Shown here: one piece after another, positions 1,374-26,900 of the stretch
Numbering within the stretch: the first letter of the stretch is position 1
How the letters are laid out: each line of letters starts with the position of its first letter
NCBI GenBank assembly: GCA_964058805.1
Contig: CAXKVV010001046.1
Coordinates: forward strand, 1-27,377
From: Schoenoplectus triqueter
Taxonomy: Eukaryota; Streptophyta; Magnoliopsida; Poales; Cyperaceae
Length of the DNA stretch: 27,377 bases
Direction: 5' to 3'
Made by a program: the position numbers and the translations under genes
Notes under the pieces: generated by a model
What the model saw: the letters and a program-made list of their open reading frames with translations, nothing else
Databases searched by the model: none
Told to the model about the DNA's origin: nothing

Positions 1374-3623
1374 CACTACTAGAATTTGAGTTATTATCGT
1401 GGTTACTTGATATTTTTTCCGTGATAAATCTGGGTTCTACGGAAATAAGGAGACTGACGCGTGATGCTTATCATTTCTGTAGGCAAGTCCGCGAAAAAAA
1501 TTTACACGGAAATAAAATCCACGGAATATAGTCTATCTTTTCACGGAAATACTTCAGAACTCTCTATTTCACGGAAATAAGTACAGTCTTTCATGGAAAT
1601 ACTCTACTCTGTCACACCTATTCTTTTCCAATTTATTTTCCCGCCTCTTTCATTTTCAGCCATAACAATTCCTTTCTTTAACATAAATGAAATTTCAATT
1701 TCCGCCAAAAAATTTGGAGATGCCGCCTGTTTTACTCCAATCTTTTTTAAGGATCGATTGGATCCCTATTTTTTTAGTTAACCCAAAATTTGAAGATGTC
1801 GTCTCTTTCATCGTCCTCTCCTCACCTCCTCCGTTCTCTAACCAAAACCAAATCCTCCACCTCCTCTGTCCTCTTCCTCTCCATTTCTCAAGAACACGAA
1901 ACAATCCAACTCTTTCTCGCCGAACGGTTGATATTTCGCCGCTCTCTCTCCTGAATCAACCTTAAAGGTGAGAGCTTTATTTTTTTTTTCACAATTCGTT
2001 TCAAATATGTGCTTAATTTGACTGTAATTTTCTGAAATTTGTTTAATATTCTTTAATATTTAGGTATGGGATACGAGCTCTGGAGAAATCATGGCTTATT
2101 GGAAGGATCCCGACTCAGTTGCCGTCTACTCTTGCATTGTGTGCTCTAATAGAAGAAAGAAGGTATTTGTGATGATATTTTCTTCTCTCAGTAAAATTTT
2201 GATGAACCTCAATTATGATTCAAAGATTAACTTCTTTTCAAGTTAAGATGAAAAATATTGTCCTGGTTGCTTTGGGTACTGCTATTAGAGATGTCAAATT
2301 CTTATTTGCAAATCGTTTTTATGATAATGATTTATTCATTAATTTTATCTTGTTAAAGTCATCAAAGTCCTAATTCTATCTATATTGGGTATCTATATTG
2401 GCATTACTACAGAACTTCAATATTTCTTACAGAATTATTGACATTACTCACAGGAATATTGACATTACTCACAGAAATAATAACTCTAATTTTTTTTACA
2501 GTTGGTGTCATATTTGTTCTTCTAATAGAAGAAATAAATCAAGTAATTAATATTTATTGGCTCTTCTATCTCTATCTTATTACAGCTCTAATTTTTCTTT
2601 CTTGTCCAAATCAAACATGCAGAAACCTATTTTATTTTCTTAAATTTGATATTAGGAGGTATTGCTTTGTTAGGAGTTCAACATCCTGCTTTTCAGGTAA
2701 CAAAGATTGAATTTAAGATAATTATTGGGAGGTACTACTTTGTTGATAACATACTAATTTATATTACTAATTTCACTCATAGGATCATCATGGTCTCATT
2801 CCTCAGTCATTTCAAAGAGTTATGAGGATGCATGTAGCTTTAACTCAGGTGAATTTTCAGCTCTATATAGTGAGAATTGTGTGCAGACAAATAAGATTTT
2901 GATGTTTCACAATACTAATTTTTGTTGTTCACTGTATGTTGTGCTTGTAGGGTCATAATCTCATTTCTCAGCCAACTCAAGGACATCATATGCTTTTAAA
3001 TTATATCAATATAGTAGTTGATATAAGGGTTTATATTTTAGCAGTTCAATACCTGTATTTTCTGATTTGATGTATTTCTAATTGATGTTTTTATATGATA
3101 CATTATTTTTCTGAAGTTATTTTCAATGCTTGATTATTTTAATTTGTCATCAGTTGTCAATTGGAAAACAAAATAATTCACATTACTGACAGCAATAATC
3201 AAAAGTTACTGAACAATGTGGTGTTACTGAACAAATAATGTGGTGTTACTGTCCGAAATAATGTGTTTTTACTGACAGAAATAATGAGTTCACCTATTGT
3301 ATTTTTCTTAAAATCTGCGTAAATTAATTAACAATAGAAAAATAATAATGTGGATGAATAGAATTATTCCGTGACTTGAAAGTTATTTCCGTGGAAGTAA
3401 GAACCATGAGACGTGAAACTATTTCCGTAGAATCATTTCCGTGCTTAATTCCTTGGAAAAGGATTATCTCTGTGGTATTCTACGGAAATGATATTTGTTC
3501 TGACGATGAAAGTACCGTGGAAGTCTTTCCGTGGGTAATTCACGGAAATGACGTCTTTTCCGTGCTTGAGTCCACAGAATAAGCGTTTTTCGTTCCACGG
3601 TAATAACAATAATTCTAGTAGTG
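1374..3623. mobile_element. Non-autonomous CACTA (En/Spm) transposon
   Basis: The left end begins CACTACTAGAATT and the right end is its inverted copy, which is the hallmark CACTA terminus. Both ends are flanked by the triplet GAA (1371-1373 and 3624-3626), matching the 3-bp duplication of this superfamily. The subterminal regions (about 1425-1605 and 3366-3605) are crowded with short copies of TTTCCGTGG and its complement CCACGGAAA in both orientations. This is the usual layout of transposase-binding repeats in En/Spm elements. No TNPA- or TNPD-like transposase frame is present in the 2,250 bp, so the element would need transposase from elsewhere. Its interior holds exon-like blocks, annotated separately. 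Confidence 0.9.
1796..3000 (+). pseudogene. Captured host-gene fragment inside the CACTA element
   Basis: Several blocks read like exons bounded by GT and AG. The first (1796-1967) opens with an ATG and encodes a Ser/Leu/Thr-rich start (MSSLSSSSPHLLRSLTKTKS) resembling an organelle transit peptide. That frame stops at 1952-1954, before the donor GT at 1968. Further blocks lie at 2064-2162, about 2656-2696 (reading GIALLGVQHPAFQ), 2783-2848 (66 nt, reading DHHGLIPQSFQRVMRMHVAL and two more residues) and from 2951 (GHNLISQPTQGHHMLL). The last three join in frame. I do not recognise the source protein. A multi-exon fragment on one strand inside CACTA ends suggests transposon capture of host sequence. 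Whether it is transcribed cannot be seen. Confidence 0.5.
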
Positions 3624-3626
3624 GAA

Positions 3627-5728
3627 CATGTCCGCGGTTATTATATTATCTACAATGTCTAGATCAACATTTTTTTGGCGAAAAGGGACAAAAAGTAGGT
3701 CGAAATTATTAAAATTGCCTGATCGATCGAGTTTTTTTTTTATTTTAATTAAATTTAATCTGTATCGTGAGAGTCGTGAAAAATTAAGAAAAAAAACTAG
3801 TCTAATCGATGAATCTGAAGTCATGGACGATTTTTAAGTTTTGTTTGCTTATATTTGTTAACATCAAATTATCATCCAATTTTCAATATCTAAAGCTGAA
3901 TTTTCATTTGAATAACAAACTTATGATTTTTTTAACACAAAATGTATTGCTTTTTTTTGCCACTGTCATATGTTAGTTCGAATTATTTTGTTTACTTTGA
4001 ATTACATTTTTGCTAAATATATAATTTTTATAATGTTGCCATGAATGTATGTAGTTCGTTATATTTATTTTCAAACAAAAAAGGACTACAAAGTCCTTGG
4101 CCAGTTGTTCAAAGGCATTGCAAGAATGGTCCAAAAATGAATCATTTGGCAGATATCTAATTTTCAACGTTGCGTTTGGTTCGTACCAAAAAGACATAAA
4201 TGCCTGATATATATGCTCCGGCCGTGACAATTTATTTGGCAAAACAGAGGGCAGTTGTGTACTTGTGTTCCCTTGGACTCGGCTTTGCCTTTGCATGTGA
4301 TTAGAAAGAAACAACCGGATCCAGTTTAGTCAAATTGCCAGTGCAGATACAATGTGACAATTCAACAGTAGTTTCACGTACGGATCAATTTTTTTTTAAT
4401 CCATATACATCATTTATTTTTTAAATCATTCTTAATCATATCATATCGACCCATTGAATCAGATCAAATTTTGACAATCCTATTTATACATAACACGATT
4501 AATCTCGACGATTCAACTCCAAAAAGTACAACCTTTAGAATTCAGCTTGATTAGTTATGAATTGGATCTTGTTTTTTTGAAATATTTTGGTGTAAAGTTG
4601 AAGAAAGATCGAGCAAAATTTTTAATTATGAATAGGGATATTAAAAAAATTATAAATTGATAGCTATGTTATTATAATTAAGAGAGGAGATTTGTACAAG
4701 TGGCATTCAATACCTTCAACATTTTGAAATATATTTCAAAATTTAATACTCAAATTTTTAGTATGAACTATTGATTTTGTTTCATTTTTACGATATATGT
4801 ATCATGTATGATTTGTGAAATTGAATGATTTTAATTTGGAGGACATTTTATAATAAATCAAATATAATAAAATGAGTGAACCTAATTTATTATGATTGTT
4901 TGATTTTTATGCACTTATTTTATTACCATTCAACCTAGCATAAAATGACCTTAAAAAAACTATGAAAAAAATTTAAGAGCATACATCTATCACAAAAATT
5001 AACAAGATTTATATTTAGATTCAAAATTTGATTAATGAAATTTTAAATATTAATTAAAAAAATAAGTGGTATAGGACATCACTAAAAATAGTGACACTGG
5101 ATATCTTCCCTGTAAGTAATATGCTTTCTTGTTATTTATTTATTTTTATTCAGAAATTGTACGTTTCATTAATTAAAATAAGCCATTCTTATTTCATTTT
5201 TAATTATAATTTAATAACTTTTTTCAACGACAAAATTGTAAAATTAGGAAAACACCATTGCTCGAAGTAAATTCAGATTTAATGGTTTTCAATCACAATA
5301 TCGATTAGTCGATTAGCATATTGTGATTAGTTACGGATCTAATATGTTATAATCGGAGTATAGTGAATCGGATTGTTAGATTTAATGATTTTCGTCGAGT
5401 GCTTTCAGTAGCGGGTCAGCAGATATGGACAGATTTAATCTTATTTATAGAAAAATTTAGCTCTCAATTAATATATTCATCAATAAATAGACTCTGCCTC
5501 ATTTATTGGGCTATATAAATTACTAATTTGAATTATTTTTGTGAAAACTTTTGTACGTTTTCTGATGTTATATTATATTTGATTATCTTTATTCAATTCA
5601 ACAATTAAAATTTTAAATTTTAAATTTAATAAATAGTTACGTCTTATACAGAACAAAGTTGGGAAAAGAGTCATGATATAGAGGAGGGTATAAATGCCTT
5701 TAATTTTTTTGTCTGCTCCATTATATCT
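3627..5728. other. AT-rich intergenic region, no supported gene
   Basis: Long AT-rich stretch. A 113-codon minus-strand frame at 3973-4314 has no recognisable domain, lies in a slightly more GC-rich patch and shows no surrounding gene structure, so I do not call it a gene. That patch (about 4080-4330) could be an old transposon or gene remnant. Nothing else could be resolved. Confidence 0.5.
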
Positions 5729-18910: not shown

Positions 18911-18981
18911 GGTATAAGGCATAATCAACCCATTTACCTCATTGCCTGTCGATTGGAAGAAGGTACATATTACGAAATCTC

Positions 18982-19100
18982 CAGTTTTTATTATAAATAA
19001 TAATTATTAAATTAATATTATTAAATATAAGAGTGATAACGGTGAAAGTGCAAAAATACGAATCGTAACGCGCCACTGCCATTGGCGCGGGTGAAACGCG
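18982..19100 (+). repeat. Left TIR of the MULE
   Basis: Pairs with 23440-23557. The first 26 bases are identical between the ends; the next part diverges by small indels within an AT-rich run. AATAAGAGTGA-type words, AAAAATACGAA and ACGCGCCACTGCC then re-align. Confidence 0.9.
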
Positions 19101-19126
19101 CCACTGCCAGTGGCGCGTTTCACCCG
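19069..19126. repeat. Left subterminal palindrome pair
   Basis: Two palindromes with centres at about 19079 and 19107. The first (19069-19089) is CGCGCCACTG, one spacer base and CATTGGCGCG, with one mismatch. The second is a perfect 39-nt palindrome (19088-19126): a 19-nt arm from CGGGTGAAA to CCACTG, one central C at 19107, then the complementary arm. The pair lies directly before a TATATATT word (19126-19133), the likely core promoter of the plus-strand gene. Confidence 0.9.
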
Positions 19127-19356
19127 TATATATTGTACCGCGCAACACACCTGCGCGTTGTTGACAGGAGAGAGAAAGAGAGAAACGAAAAGAGAGAGGA
19201 AGAGAGAAAGAGAGGAAGAGAGAGGAAGAGAGAGGAAGAGAGGAAGAGAGAGGAAGAGAGAGGAAGAGAGAAAGAGAGGAAGAGAGAGGAAGAGAGAGGA
19301 AGAGAACCGGAGGAAAAAAACGCACGCTAGCATTTCTGTGGATTTTGCAATTAAAG
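19126..19356 (+). promoter_or_regulatory. Inferred core promoter and 5'UTR exon of the PMD-like gene
   Basis: A TATATATT word at 19126-19133 is followed by a purine-rich leader. The leader ends in ATTAAAG followed by GTAATTTT at 19357, a good splice donor. An acceptor TTTTTTACTAG (ending 20636) lies three bases before the ATG at 20640. This implies a non-coding first exon and a 1,280-bp leader intron. It is inferred from motif positions only. Confidence 0.45.
19167..19306 (+). repeat. GA-rich low-complexity tract (GAGAGGAA type)
   Basis: About 140 bases almost wholly A and G, mostly GAGAGAGGAA and AAAGAGA units, ending near AACCGG. It lies in the inferred leader exon of the PMD-like gene. 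Long open frames on both strands here (Arg/Glu-rich on plus, Ser/Leu/Phe-rich on minus) are artefacts of the repeat. (GA)n leaders often bind GAGA/BPC-type factors in plants, which is a possibility only. Confidence 0.9.
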
Positions 19357-19377
19357 GTAATTTTTTATAAATATTAT

Positions 19378-20535
19378 TTAATTGTGTAGATTATTTAAAA
19401 TTTAATTTAATTGTGTAGATTAATTGTAATTTAATTTAATTATGTAGATTAATTATAATTTAATTTAATTTAATTGTGTAGATTAATTATAATTTAATCT
19501 AATTATGTAGATTAATTATAATTTAAACGTGAAATTATGTAGATTAATTATAATTTAATTTAATTTAATTATGTAGATTAATTATAATTTAATTTAATTA
19601 TGTAGATTAATTATAATTTAATTTAATTGTGTAGATTAATTGTAATTTAATTTAATTGTGTAGATTAATTATAACTTAATTTAATTATGTAGATTAATTA
19701 TAATTTAATTTAATTATGTAGATTAATTATAATTTAATTTAATTTAATTGTGTAGATTAATTATAATTTAATTTAATTGTGTAGATTAATTATAATTTAA
19801 TTTAATTGTGTAGATTAATTATAACTTAATTTAATTATGTAGATTAATTATAATTTAATTTAATTTAATTGTGTAGATTAATTGTAATTTAATTTAATTA
19901 TGTAGATTAATTAGAATTTAATTTAATTATGTAGATTAATTATAATTTAATTTAATTATGTAGATTAATTGTAATTTAATTTAATTTTGTAGATTAATTA
20001 TAACTTAATTTAATTATGTAGATTAATTATAATTTAATTTAATTTAATTGTGTAGATTAATTATAATTTAATTTAATTGTGTAGATTAATTATAATTTAA
20101 TTTAATTGTGTAGATTAATTATAACTTAATTTAATTATGTAGATTAATTATAATTTAATTTAATTTAATTGTGTAGATTAATTATAATTTAATTTAATTG
20201 TGTAGATTAATTATAATTTAATTTAATTATGTAGATTAATTATAACTTAATTTAATTATGTAGATTAATTATAATTTAATTTAATTGTGTAGATTAATTG
20301 TAATTTAATTTAATTATGTAGATTAATTATAATTTAATTTAATTGTGTAGATTAATTATAATTTAATTTAATTGTGTAGATTAATTATAACTTAATTTAA
20401 TTATGTAGATTAATTATAATTTAATTTAATTGTGTAGATTAATTGTAATTTAAATTAATTATGTAGATTAATTAAAATTTAATTTAATTGTGTAGATTAA
20501 TTATAATTTAATTTAATTGTGTAGATTAATTGTAG
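19378..20535. repeat. Minisatellite, 27- and 32-bp units, about 40 copies
   Basis: Head-to-tail copies of TGTAGATTAATTATAATTTA plus TTTAAT, 27 bp long, with a common 32-bp variant that adds TTAAT. Point variants (GTGTAG/ATGTAG, TTGTAA/TTATAA, AACTTAA/AATTTAA) recur in the same order in blocks of several units, for example around 19640-19840, 20000-20140 and 20080-20200. This shows higher-order duplication of multi-unit segments. The array lies inside the MULE, within the inferred leader intron of the PMD-like gene. It has no protein-coding sense. Confidence 0.97.
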
Positions 20536-20639
20536 AATTTATTGTAGAATTTATTGTTTATTTAATTATATGATAGATAGATTAAAAATGAAGTACAATA
20601 ATTATAAATTAATTATGAAATGAATTTTTTTACTAGATA

Positions 20640-20948
20640 ATGGCAGGCGAGCAACGAGATGAGAATATCATAATTTATCTCCCTGAAGACAAACATCGGA
20701 CACATTATAGTCAGGCACAGGTACATTATATTCTTAAAAATAATAATAAAATACATATATACGAGAAGCTAATTATGAAATGAAAATTACAGAGAGATAA
20801 CAATATCATTCGTTTCCGCACTCACCGTCCCACGATACCATACATCTCGCACATTCAGAGTAGGTTGCGAGTTATGGGATTTCTTCATCTCGCCAGATTG
20901 CGTGAGATTTATGTCCAAGAAGCGGAATTACGTTCATACGAGCTGTAA
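20640..20948 (+). CDS. Short two-exon gene resembling the start of a plant mobile domain (PMD) protein, 78 aa
   Basis: Exon 1 is 20640-20720 (ATG, 27 codons, starting MAGEQRDENIIIYLPEDKHR). Exon 2 is 20793-20948 (51 codons plus TAA), joined in frame across a 72-bp GT-AG intron. The joined product has HRTHYSQAQRDNNIIRFRTH and then LRVMGFLHLARL. This follows the pattern at the start of aminotransferase-like PMD proteins: an HRS..W.. segment, then a GVLR.R.H segment, then LRRMGFYG..RL. It stops where the family normally continues into the ALxERWRPETHTFH region, so it is a fragment of about 80 residues against the several hundred usual. PMD proteins (MAIN/MAIL1 family) act in silencing and genome stability, and related domains are carried by plant transposons. 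The gene converges on the transposase gene. It could be a remnant, or the exon could be chance on the strand opposite a lost transposase exon. Confidence 0.5.
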
Positions 20949-21014
20949 TTATTGAAACAAATACAAAAGATATCACGATATGTTAAAAATTTTGTAAAAT
21001 ATAGTAAAATAATA

Positions 21015-23231
21015 TCAACACGAACCTGCTTTGTCGTCACGTTTTGCCAAGATGTCATCAATTTTTTTTGGCCATTGCTTGCATGCTCTATGCAGGTTCA
21101 TTGCTTCCATTTCCCTCTTATCGAACCATTTAGCACATTTATACCATGTTCCCTCCACAATTGCTGCAACCGGTAAAGTTCGTTCAACTCTGAAGACGCT
21201 ATTCAGAGCTTCAGAACCATTGCTGGTCATTATACCCCATCGATGTCCTCCATCATACGTTTGTGCCCACGAAGCAAAATTAGGAGGTTCTTTATCATCA
21301 TTTTCTAATCTTCTGCCGACTTTTTTTAAAAAATCATAAGCTTTTCTATTTGATTTCCTCAAAATTCGCCATCTTTCTACGAAACGACGCGGTTTCTTTT
21401 TGTTCGCTAGTCTTCTTCGGAAATCATCTCTGAGATTATCTTCTTTCTTTCCAGTTTTTCCGGCTTCCTTATATAAATTCTCTGCGACGTGTTGCATGCA
21501 ATACCGGTGTACCGCCTCTCCATGTTGTACAGACCATCCCAAATGCGGTCGCTCAAAAACTCCCTTTATTCCCCTATGACGGTCGGATATAACACATATT
21601 TTCATATTACATTGGATCACTTCATTACGGACCCATCGCATGAACCAACCCCAATTGTCCACATTTTCTGCATCCACGATTCCAAATGCTAGAGGAATGA
21701 TTTTATTCTCTGCATCGTATCCACACGCCATCAATAATCTACCCTTATAACGACCCGATAAGAATCCAACGTCAATAGTTATAACGGGTCTTAAATGTTT
21801 AAACGCTGCAATGCACGGTCCATAAGCCCAAACTATGGATTTAAATATTTTTACATTATTATCCGAAGTATCACACGTCAATAATTTAAATTTTGTACCT
21901 GGAGTAGTCCGAGCAATCGCCTCCAATATCTGTGGAAGCAATGTATATGATCCTTCCCAAGTGCCAAATAATTGTTCAATTGCTCTTTCTCGGCCACGCC
22001 AAAGTTTACCGTATGTCGGTGCCACACCGGGATATTTTGTTTCTATAATCATACCGATTTGTTGAACTGTTAGAGAGAGATCCTTCTTTAAATGTTGTCG
22101 AACACATCCTGCAATCAAATTAGATGTGAGTTGTAAGTGTTTGCGGTCTCCTGGTGGTCTTCTACAGTTGTGGGGGTTTTTATTTGTGATGATCCTCCAT
22201 GTGGTCGAGCCCTCTTCAGGTCTAGCGTATAATCTCCAAGGACAACTATCTTCTTTGCATTTAATAATAAGTCGTGTTTTACAACTTTCTTGTACCCAAC
22301 ATTGAACGTTTTTCCTAACACTCCAATCACAAATTACCCACTTTAAAGCCGATTTAGAAGCAAATATTCTATTTTCAGCTAACTCATCATCGAGTCCTAA
22401 AAGATATTCATTCGCGCCTAAACGGTCAAACATCTCAAAATTATTTAACGCTTCTACGGGATGGTGTCTCTCAGTTCGTCCGGTAACTAACAATGTGGTA
22501 TCACATCTCTGAATTTCCTCATCTTCAGATTCATCGATCGAAAAATCCGAGTGGTCAGTGTAATCCTCTCCTGTTTCTTCTTCATTTGAATAATACGGAC
22601 CGCCATCATCTTGCTCATCCTGATCATCACTTAATTCCATTATCGTTGGATCAACACTACTTCTGTCATCAATATTATCAGCTAAATTACAGCCAGACGT
22701 AGTACTACTACTACCGCCAAAAAAATTATATAGTGGCACCGCTGGGTTTGGTTGTTGATAAATTATATTGTTACTGTAAATAGCTGGATACGGATATAAA
22801 TTGGTTTGATCGTAGGTAGGATAGGAATTGGTTTGATCGTAGGTTTGATAGGAATGAGTTTGATCGAGGGTTGGATAGGAATTGGTTTGATCGTAGGTTT
22901 GATAGGAATTGGTTTGATCGAGGGTTGGATAGGAATTGGTTTGATCGTAGCTTTGATAGGAATTGGTTTGATCGAGGGTTGGATAGGAATTGGTTTGATC
23001 GTAGGTTTGATAGGAATTGGTTTGATCGAGGGTTGGATAGGAATTGGTTTGATCGAGGGTTGGATAGGAATTGGTTTGATCGTAGGTTTGATATGAATTG
23101 ATTTGATCGTGGGTTGGATAGAAATTGGTTTCATTCTGGTTTGAAAATATTCCCGTCAAAAATTTACTGCCGCTCGGTTGTTCTGCAGTATAATTTTCTT
23201 TATCGGGATTATAATTTAAATCTGGTAGCAT
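21015..23231 (-). CDS. mudrA: mudrA-type MULE transposase, 738 aa
   Basis: DDE transposase of the Mutator superfamily that would cut and reinsert its own element. The frame opens at the ATG at 23229-23231, about 50 nt after the expected start from a TATA box. Residues 40-147 are Y/Q/N/T-rich decapeptide repeats, and an acidic stretch follows (about 187-240). The MuDR-type DNA-binding zinc finger is at about 285-395, with C325-x4-C330 and H354-x-C356. The MULE catalytic domain (about 475-690) shows D487 in TIDVGFLSGRYKG, D550 in CVISDRHRGI, the C578/H581 pair in HRYCMQH and E674 in TSNGSEALNS, so the DDE triad is present. The frame ends at DDKAGSC. A splice donor (CAG/GTTCGT) lies at this point, but no downstream exon with a CxC...CxH SWIM finger was found. 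The product is either truncated or naturally SWIM-less. Confidence 0.93.
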   Translation of the reverse strand: MLPDLNYNPDKENYTAEQPSGSKFLTGIFSNQNETNFYPTHDQINSYQTYDQTNSYPTLDQTNSYPTLDQTNSYQTYDQTNSYPTLDQTNSYQSYDQTNSYPTLDQTNSYQTYDQTNSYPTLDQTHSYQTYDQTNSYPTYDQTNLYPYPAIYSNNIIYQQPNPAVPLYNFFGGSSSTTSGCNLADNIDDRSSVDPTIMELSDDQDEQDDGGPYYSNEEETGEDYTDHSDFSIDESEDEEIQRCDTTLLVTGRTERHHPVEALNNFEMFDRLGANEYLLGLDDELAENRIFASKSALKWVICDWSVRKNVQCWVQESCKTRLIIKCKEDSCPWRLYARPEEGSTTWRIITNKNPHNCRRPPGDRKHLQLTSNLIAGCVRQHLKKDLSLTVQQIGMIIETKYPGVAPTYGKLWRGRERAIEQLFGTWEGSYTLLPQILEAIARTTPGTKFKLLTCDTSDNNVKIFKSIVWAYGPCIAAFKHLRPVITIDVGFLSGRYKGRLLMACGYDAENKIIPLAFGIVDAENVDNWGWFMRWVRNEVIQCNMKICVISDRHRGIKGVFERPHLGWSVQHGEAVHRYCMQHVAENLYKEAGKTGKKEDNLRDDFRRRLANKKKPRRFVERWRILRKSNRKAYDFLKKVGRRLENDDKEPPNFASWAQTYDGGHRWGIMTSNGSEALNSVFRVERTLPVAAIVEGTWYKCAKWFDKREMEAMNLHRACKQWPKKIDDILAKRDDKAGSC
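22790..23116 (-). repeat. In-frame 30-bp tandem repeats in the transposase N-terminus
   Basis: About 11 copies of a 30-bp unit keep the reading frame and encode alternating decapeptides YQTYDQTNSY and YPTLDQTNSY. The two variants alternate for much of the array, so 60-bp double units were probably duplicated. Because 30 is a multiple of three, unit number can change without breaking the protein. Other open frames over this array on both strands are shadows of it. Confidence 0.95.
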
Positions 23232-23310
23232 TTTTGAAGAAAAATGGATGTTTGTTGTAATTGGATGTTGGTTGTTTTTTTGGTTGTGATAAATGAACCG
23301 ACGGGGCTGG

Positions 23311-23318
23311 TATTTATA
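23311..23318 (-). promoter_or_regulatory. TATA box of the transposase gene
   Basis: The minus strand reads GCTATAAATACC. This puts the TATA box about 80 nt before the ATG, giving a leader of roughly 50 nt. It lies directly inside the right palindrome array, the nearest palindrome centre being about 24 bp upstream. Confidence 0.7.
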
Positions 23319-23329
23319 GCAAAGATAGG

Positions 23330-23473
23330 CGCCACTGGCACTGGCGTGGTCTGAGGAAACGCGCCACTGCCAGTGGCGCGTTTGGTGAAAGACGCCACTG
23401 GCAGTGGCGCGTTTGTGAAAGACGCCACTGGCAGTGGCGCGTTTCCAAACGCGCCACTGGCAGTGGCGCGTTT
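23330..23473. repeat. Right subterminal array of five phased palindromes
   Basis: Five copies of a CGCCACTG-N-CAGTGGCG palindrome have centres at about 23338, 23370, 23401, 23431 and 23460, spaced 29-32 bp. The innermost has one mismatch. Copies at 23360-23380 and 23450-23470 are perfect over 21 nt, and the last extends to 27 nt with flanking AAA/TTT. The array is markedly GC- and CpG-rich within an AT-rich element. It overlaps the inner part of the right TIR and the upstream region of the transposase. Confidence 0.92.
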
Positions 23474-23557
23474 TGGTTCGTATTTTTGTAAATGAAATGT
23501 TCTCACTCTTATTATTAATATTATTATTTTATTAATTATTATTTATAATAAAAACTG
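23440..23557 (-). repeat. Right TIR of the MULE
   Basis: Inverted counterpart of 18982-19100. The terminal bases on the minus strand are CAGTTTTTATTATAAATAAT, directly bounded by the target duplication CGAAATCTC at 23558-23566. Confidence 0.9.
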
Positions 23558-23566
23558 CGAAATCTC

Positions 23567-23923: not shown

Positions 23924-26900
23924 TGGTGGTTTTCGAGTTTTGCATCTTGTCAGACCATTTTTGGCATTTCTGCCTGAAGTGCAGAGTGCCGACAGAAAGA
24001 TCCCCTTTAGAGAGAAGGTGATTTACACTGTTATCTCGCTTTTCATCTTTCTCGTCTGTTCCCAGCTCCCTCTCTATGGAATCCACTCTACAACGGGTGC
24101 TGACCCGTTCTACTGGATGCGGGTAATCCTTGCGTCGAACCGTGGTACCGTTATGGAGCTGGGTATCACCCCGATTGTGACATCTGGACTAGTCATTCAA
24201 TTGTTGGTCGGTTCTAAGATCATAGAAGTCGACAACAGTGTCAGAGAGGATCGTGCATTACTGTAAGTGAAAGTCTCCTTGCCTTCAACAAATTGGATTT
24301 GGGTATCATCTATGTAAGTAAACAATAGTAAGCACATAGTACCAAATGGTCACAATATATTTGAGACATTTCATATGCCCAATTTTTATATAGTTTTACC
24401 AATAAATAGTGACCAACAAGGTCAAGTCAGATTTGCAATTATATTTGGGTTTATTCCGCAGATTACCTCTTAGAAGGGCTTCTTTTTGCTCGTTGAAACG
24501 TGTGAATGTTGCATGTCATTTTACAACAACAACAACAAAGCCTTTAATCCCAAATAAATTGGGGTAGGCTAGAAATAAAACCCAATCAAAAAGTATAAGA
24601 TCAAAGATCTAAAATATCAGTGATAATAATGAATATGATGAAAGAAAAAGAAAATAAATAAATAAAATAATAATAATAATAAATAAATAAAGATGATAAT
24701 GATAATGATGATGATAATATGCTAATAGTAATAGCAATAATAACAATAATAATAATAGTACAATAAACCTCTATTATAAAACCTATTTCTAAATCTTAAA
24801 ATCCTAAAAATCTAAGAATAGTTTTACAACAACAACAACAACAAAGCCTTTAATCCCAAATAAATTGGGGTAGGCTAGAAATGAAACCCAATCGGAAAAC
24901 AAATCTAAGAATAGTTTTAAAGCAGTAAATTTCAAATAGTTTCTGAAAGCCTTTTAATTATGAATTTTCCATAGGTATTTTAGTAATTGTATGAAAGCCT
25001 TTTAAAGGCTTTGTTGTTGTTGTTGTATACTTGTATTTGTGAGTTTGTTTTCTTATTGTATAGGTGAGTTACTTGTTCTTATGTAAAGATAATTGTGTTT
25101 ATATTTTTTTTGGCAGCAATGGTGCACAGAAATTGCTTGGTATATTGATAGCCATAGGAGAGGCTGTTGCATACGTTCTATCTGGGATGTATGGCAGTGT
25201 CAGCCAGCTTGGTACTGGCAATGCAATTTTGATCATACTTCAGCTTTTCTTTGCTGGTATCATTGTCATATGCTTGGATGAATTGCTGCAGAAGGGCTAT
25301 GGGTTGGGATCTGGTATCTCTCTCTTCATTGCCACCAATATCCGGTAATGTACTTGAATTATATCTTTTTGAAGCATGCATGCAAAATTTTGAGCCAATT
25401 TAGGGTTTTTTGATATGGCCAGTTTCAGAAATTGTAAAGCTAAGAAATTGATATGGATTTTATGGATCCAAGTTAAAACTTTTCAGCAGTTTTGGAGGAA
25501 ATTGCTGGAAATTTGTGCTCAGTCGGTTCTTATAAATTTTCCTAAATTGCCCAAATTTCAGTAAAGCCTTGATTATCCTCAAACTATCTTTCAGTAAAGC
25601 ACTGAAGAAGCCATATGAAAATGAAATGCTCCAAACTAAGTACAATGAAGTAACTTCATTGTTTTTAAATCAGAATATTTACTATAATGTTGGTCTGTAT
25701 TCTTCATATTGTCCAAGATCTCAAGATCAATGTGTCTATATCAGCCTTTTCAATCCTTATGTTTTGGTGAAGTTAAACATAACACTTAAATGCCACCATG
25801 TTAATGTCAACATTATAATAGAATATTAAACTAATCTCTTTATGGTGTCTTTGTCAACAATGCAGCGAGAACATCATATGGAAAGCCTTTAGCCCGACAA
25901 CAATCAACAGTGGTCGTGGTGCAGAGTTTGAGGGTGCTGTGATTGCTCTGTTCCACCTCTTAATAAGCCGAACTGACAAGGTGCGGGCCCTACGTGAGGC
26001 TTTCTACCGTCAGAACCTTCCCAATGTTACTAACCTCCTTGCTACTGTTCTTGTCTTCCTCATTGTAATCTACTTCCAGGTATGCATCTAATGTTTTTCC
26101 CACAGCTTGGGTTTACCATTGGCCTTAATGAAACTGGATTTAAGGAAAATTTATACGTTTAGGCTAACAGAGCCTTATGCTAAAAAAAAGGATAGTTCAC
26201 TAAATCACATTTTCCTATATAATTTGGTGTGATGCATTCATCATAATGTGTGATTCCTGCGATATACTTCCAGGGATTCCGTGTGGTCCTCCCAGTGCGT
26301 TCCAAGAATGCACGAGGTCAGCAGGGCTCTTACCCCATCAAACTCTTTTATACTTCCAACATGCCAATTATCCTTCAGTCTGCTCTTGTTTCCAACCTCT
26401 ATTTCATCTCTCAGGTAAATAACTGGTTCTATAATATTTTCTGCTGCCTATATTGAAGGTTTTGTCGATAATTTCTTGCATCTTCTAAACATCTTTGGGT
26501 CACTTAAGGAAAAATATTATGCCGGTGATGCAAAATATTGGTATATTCTTGTTTAAAAAAATGTCCTGGAACTTTTAATGGTGCAACTTCTATTTTTTGA
26601 TGATGCGTGTTTAGCGAGATAGTTTGGCTGAACTGGCGTTTATGAATCGTGCTTTAATGTACAGCCTTGTACTTCCATTTACTTCCTTAATGGATTCTCT
26701 AACTTCTATTAACGGTACAAGTATATTTTGGAGCTTATGCAAATTATGTTTTACTTACCAACAAAATAAATTATTGCTGTACCCAGTTATTATACAGGAG
26801 GTACAGTGGAAATTTCCTAGTAAATCTACTTGGCAAATGGAAGGAATCTGAGTACTCTGGTCAGTCTATTCCTGTTGGTGGTATTGCGTACTACATCACT

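Follow-up and report, generated by a model that had tools for sequence, protein, structure and literature searches.

Borders and ends of the element

The window, i.e. the whole stretch of 27,377 nucleotides of Schoenoplectus triqueter DNA that was analysed (contig C1023 in our numbering of the assembly), contains at positions 18982–23557 an element that is flanked on both sides by the identical 9-bp TSD CGAAATCTC (18973–18981 and 23558–23566). Its inverted ends, a left terminal inverted repeat on the plus strand (18982–19123) and a right one on the minus strand (23415–23557), align over about 143 bp, and their first 25 bp are identical. Mutator-type borders had been proposed for exactly these positions in the initial annotation and are confirmed by the identical TSD together with the matching inverted ends. 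A TSD within the range of 8–11 bp that defines MULEs is present here as well as in a sibling element on contig C1158, which is flanked by GATGGGAAA on both sides. In addition, a Pfam profile search detected the MULE transposase domain in the window element (PF10551, E 5.3e-13, above the cut-off).

A 19-bp palindrome, GCGCCACTGSCAGTGGCGC, occurs in seven copies (with at most two mismatches) near both ends of the element. Two copies lie within the left terminal inverted repeat (19070–19088 and 19098–19116, together spanning 19070–19116) and five near the right end (23329–23469), while 100 shuffles of the window yielded none. These palindromes are possibly binding sites for a protein of the family. 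Between the left end and the first gene an AT-rich 29-bp minisatellite of 38.7 copies extends on the plus strand (19376–20531), across which the window and the C1158 sibling are aligned with many gaps. The window also carries a PP2C gene, whose hand-joined exons encode a protein 87% identical to that of Carex littledalei, 81% to that of Rhynchospora pubera and about 60% to those of palms and Typha. By this one gene the host is probably a sedge; a search for matK as a second marker of host placement had no match. A further frame, which we take to be Sec61-alpha-like, is located about 0.4 kb beyond the right end of the element (23940–24266).

Two truncated convergent genes

The element carries two genes facing each other, as the initial annotation had stated: a MULE transposase frame on the minus strand (21015–23231), to which the PF10551 match belongs, and a short spliced frame on the plus strand. 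The exon structures given here are predictions that combine GT-AG splice sites with open frames.

Exon 1 of the transposase gene (21026–23231, minus strand) encodes a repeat-rich N-terminus and the MULE domain at residues 483–585, and the MuDR-type DNA-binding domain (DBD_Tnp_Mut, PF03108) stayed under the cut-off of 25 bits with a score of 19.5. A 27-bp tandem repeat of 12.6 copies (22792–23131) lies towards the N-terminus of the frame, and many of the sibling matches break there. A predicted GT-AG intron of 83 bp (20943–21025, minus strand) separates exon 1 from a remnant of exon 2 (20872–20942, minus strand), which consists of 19 native bases followed by the antisense of exon 2 of the plant mobile domain (PMD) gene up to an in-frame stop. 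The window transposase is also truncated, a point absent from the initial annotation. Its conceptual spliced product comprises 758 residues and ends in this antisense stretch, and no SWIM zinc finger was detected in it by profile search, so that it does not represent a complete mudrA-type protein. The transposase of the C1158 sibling, encoded by two exons, has 1015 amino acids and a SWIM finger in the second exon (PF04434, E 1.4e-07).

The plus-strand gene starts with an exon of 27 residues (20640–20720), followed by a GT-AG intron (20721–20792) whose splice sites are common to ten aligned copies. The second exon (20793–20948) is truncated, with 45 native residues up to position 20927 and then the residues LRSYEL and a stop. 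Since LRSYEL and the stop are the antisense of transposase exon 2, 72 of the 78 residues of the joined product derive from the PMD gene. A Pfam search with the 78-residue product returned no family at E values up to 10, and PF10536, the PMD family to which it was expected to belong, was not matched. In the corresponding product of the sibling on C317 the PF10536 match begins at residue 73; the stub retains native residues 1–72 and therefore ends just before it. Of the proposal that a short spliced frame resembles the start of PMD proteins, the frame and its intron hold, whereas a Pfam match of its own does not, and the kinship with PMD becomes visible only through the sibling copies. The region 20620–20920 recurs without a single difference in 11 other contigs among the loci compared, as would equally be expected of a young copy.

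Sibling copies and the deletion joint

Sibling copies were searched for in the same assembly (82 Mb, 2086 contigs). The query 20620–21020 matched 39 other places at 95–100% identity, all ending at window base 20927 or 20928 (best 40 of 141 candidates), and for the query 20900–21600 the matches at 39 others begin at window bases 20921–20926 (best 40 of 81 candidates). The 7978-bp element on C1158 contains both pieces of the window without a change of order, separated by about 3.6 kb. Compared to an element of this type, the window thus lacks about 3.6 kb, corresponding to element bases of about 1792–5403 as derived from the alignment ends. The joint is marked by a GGAA microhomology (20924–20927), which is common to both flanks in C1158, and a 22-mer spanning it occurs once in the assembly when exact matches are considered.

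A single deletion of this size, closed at GGAA, would have taken the end of PMD exon 2, PMD exons 3–10 and transposase exon 2 except for 19 bases. The loss lies between the two genes, each of which now reads into the antisense of the other. The deletion would likely stem from interrupted gap repair after excision or from microhomology end-joining. Interrupted gap repair is known in MuDR. The portions available of the literature on MuDR internal deletions and gap repair held no direct precedent.

A joint alignment was run on eight copies including the window. Six other siblings carry different internal deletions (C732, 982 bp; C501, 1513 bp; C266, 650 bp; C898, 2903 bp; C1039, 2856 bp; C1162, 3465 bp). 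Overlaps at the joints amount to 3 bp in C732, 4 bp in C501, 4 bp with a mismatch inside in C266, 1 bp in C898 and 2 bp in C1162, while 17 bases remain unaligned at the joint of C1039. The copy on C831 aligned as a single piece without a joint.

Fuller siblings such as that on C1158 extend the PMD frame, and they encode PMD on the plus strand at this site; siblings whose sole coding strand here is the minus strand, with a transposase exon, had been named as the outcome that would speak against a PMD gene. The alternative already considered in the initial annotation, in which the frame is left over from a longer PMD gene, is supported, as the fuller siblings hold the rest of a ten-exon PMD gene at the same place. 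In the siblings the PMD gene lies inside the MULE and opposite to the transposase; the window retains only its start.

The pairing of the two genes was counted over 57 transposase places, each taken once from 86 rows, and the figures rest on the matches listed. A row for PMD exon 6 was present within 9 kb at no fewer than 31 of the 57 places, always convergent. Nine more places, the window included, show a 5′ part of the PMD gene without an exon-6 row among the matches listed; exon-5 rows exist for three of these (C732, C501, C997), and C266 aligns into exon 5. The genes are convergent at all 40 transposase places that hold a PMD piece. For the other 17 of the 57 places the matches listed include no PMD row within 9 kb; contig ends or the extent of the listing may account for some of these. 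Transposase identity is below 90% at 12 places, and five of them keep a convergent exon-6 row (C13, the second element on C42, C518, C1850 and C903).

Taken together, the window copy is almost certainly an internal-deletion derivative of a MULE of about 8 kb with two convergent genes, a mudrA-like transposase gene (MULE and SWIM domains, weak DBD match) and a full-length PMD gene. It has lost both the SWIM finger and the PMD domain. Because both of its ends are intact, the copy could still be moved in trans by the transposase of a sibling.

The full-length PMD gene of the family

In the fuller siblings the PMD gene comprises ten exons and is convergent with a two-exon mudrA gene bearing the SWIM finger. 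Six copies were read end to end, and the whole PMD gene is open in two of them (C317 and C1927). In C42 it is open until the last exon, where one base is missing, in C39 and C1542 it has early in-frame stops, and in C1158 exon 4 carries a frameshift that is absent from the nine copies in the same alignment. Of 17 copies read from exon 1 through exon 6 and into exon 7, 15 are open. The C317 product of 699 amino acids matches PF10536 with an E value of 1.5e-61 over residues 73–438, covering profile positions 8–346 of 347.

Variants in the PMD gene were counted over 444 codons in 20 of 23 copies; C1158, C1542 and C1135 were omitted for a frameshift or indels, codons with two or three base differences were skipped and three stops were counted as nonsynonymous. 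Variants common to more than one copy comprise 16 nonsynonymous and 21 synonymous changes (per-site ratio 0.21), and singletons 35 and 14 (per-site ratio 0.70). The shared variants differ from the share of sites expected under neutrality with p 4.6e-6 and from the singletons with p 0.014, p values that are optimistic because the copies are kin by descent and possibly by conversion. After removal of duplicate loci on the same contig, 17 copies remained for a part of transposase exon 1; their shared variants comprise 7 nonsynonymous and 5 synonymous changes (0.36, a small set), and their singletons 46 and 17 (0.70).

Thus, the PMD gene of the family shows signs of purifying selection. The full-length PMD might further be a selected, element-encoded counterpart of MAIN/MAIL1 that aids escape from silencing and is kept convergent with the transposase even where transposases have diverged to about 70% identity, with the deletion copies being free riders or at most makers of poison fragments; we offer this as a tentative suggestion that is rather unlikely to hold in full.

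Relatives of the PMD and transposase genes

Of 69 PMD matches, the best five come from Rhynchospora and Carex with 34–38% identity. Sedge PMDs among the matches listed show 30–41% identity, and PP7-fused proteins of grasses come next. The nearest transposases are also from Rhynchospora (up to 54% identity). A Setaria protein (P0067) combines PF10536 and PF10551. In a tree of 26 rows the MULE PMD groups with Rhynchospora PMDs at weak support (87/77), and the row of the Setaria fusion is short and long-branched; for both reasons we make no claim on the number of captures. Among the literature matches listed, none pairs PMD with sedges.

Many PF10536 matches are located elsewhere in the assembly, in long open frames of about 560–756 residues, which are perhaps retrotransposon-borne PMDs. 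Two further PMD matches, one on C1629 (L039) in an open frame of 452 residues with 39% identity to the MULE PMD and one on C261 (L041) in a frame of 337 residues with 41% identity, represent candidate host PMD genes.

Alternative interpretations

The initial annotation had put forward a mini-gene standing in for mudrB, whose truncated PMD peptide could modify host silencing or assist transposition as an accessory factor. The frame is indeed open, its splice sites are common to the siblings, the left end with what is likely the promoter is retained, and PMD proteins function in silencing in Arabidopsis according to the available part of PMC5418596. Nevertheless, a functional peptide is highly improbable, as exact matching found the joint only once in the assembly, the product does not match PF10536 and the match in the sibling starts after the native part of the stub, its last six residues are the antisense of a transposase exon, and other derivatives break elsewhere. 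The single occurrence of the joint and the lack of a profile match led us to reject the purpose-made mini-gene. If true, it would have pointed to very small silencing modifiers encoded by elements as a new class; the copies in the same assembly show a deletion scar. The 78-residue frame would then be a by-product of the deletion, and the stub is probably without function.

An origin of the window copy as a chimera, by recombination of two different elements, has even less in its favour. The top-scoring siblings differ between the two sides of the joint, though by a score of few bases, but both sides are present in the single sibling on C1158 in the same order and orientation, and further contigs show the same. 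A chimera of two families was rejected, the window being co-linear with C1158; recombination at the joint between siblings of the same family would give a product identical to that of the internal deletion.

A direct, Pack-MULE-like capture of a host PMD fragment into the window copy can practically be dismissed: gene-fragment capture by MULEs is known (PMC5418596, available part), but the fragment is 95–100% identical to at least 39 other places, the rest of the gene lies in fuller siblings and the transposase gene is largely retained. Pack-MULE status was rejected likewise, since transposase exon 1 is kept and the fragment is part of a sibling-borne gene.

Comparison with known systems

With internal deletion as the preferred reading of the window copy, the fuller family is the more interesting object: PMD-carrying MULEs in many near-identical copies, with fewer amino-acid changes in PMD than neutrality predicts. 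Like maize MuDR with mudrA and mudrB, these elements carry a transposase gene and a second gene of opposite direction (PMC9168764, as far as the available text describes it); they differ in that the second gene is here a PMD gene, as judged by profile match. In the barley element Hvu_Abermu the transposase frame is likewise faced by a second frame of opposite direction, ORFR, for which the available text of PMC9168764 gives no relation to PMD, unlike the family described here.

Ikeda et al. (2017) reported that MULEs captured PMD-C genes twice, as fusions that occur in Amborella and in several grasses, and a possible anti-silencing use of the MULE-borne PMD-C was proposed (PMC5418596, available part). 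The family shares with these cases a PMD gene carried by MULEs; in contrast to the transposase fusions described in that text, PMD is here a separate convergent gene. PMD-bearing and PMD-deleted siblings, lying side by side in one genome, would allow a test of the anti-silencing suggestion made there.

In the portion of PMC6446971 (2019) available here, whose table includes the groups MULE-Monocots, MDR, MUDRAVI2 and MUDR, antisense PMD is recorded in the majority of members of one plant MULE group, and in other groups often or sometimes. The fuller siblings resemble these MULEs in their 9-bp TSD, inverted ends, SWIM transposase and antisense PMD frame, and since antisense-PMD MULEs are already tabulated there, the architecture of the fuller siblings is known. 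The window copy departs from the antisense-PMD MULEs of that table in that its PMD domain and SWIM exon are gone; it is a non-autonomous copy, derived by deletion from a MULE of a kind already known.
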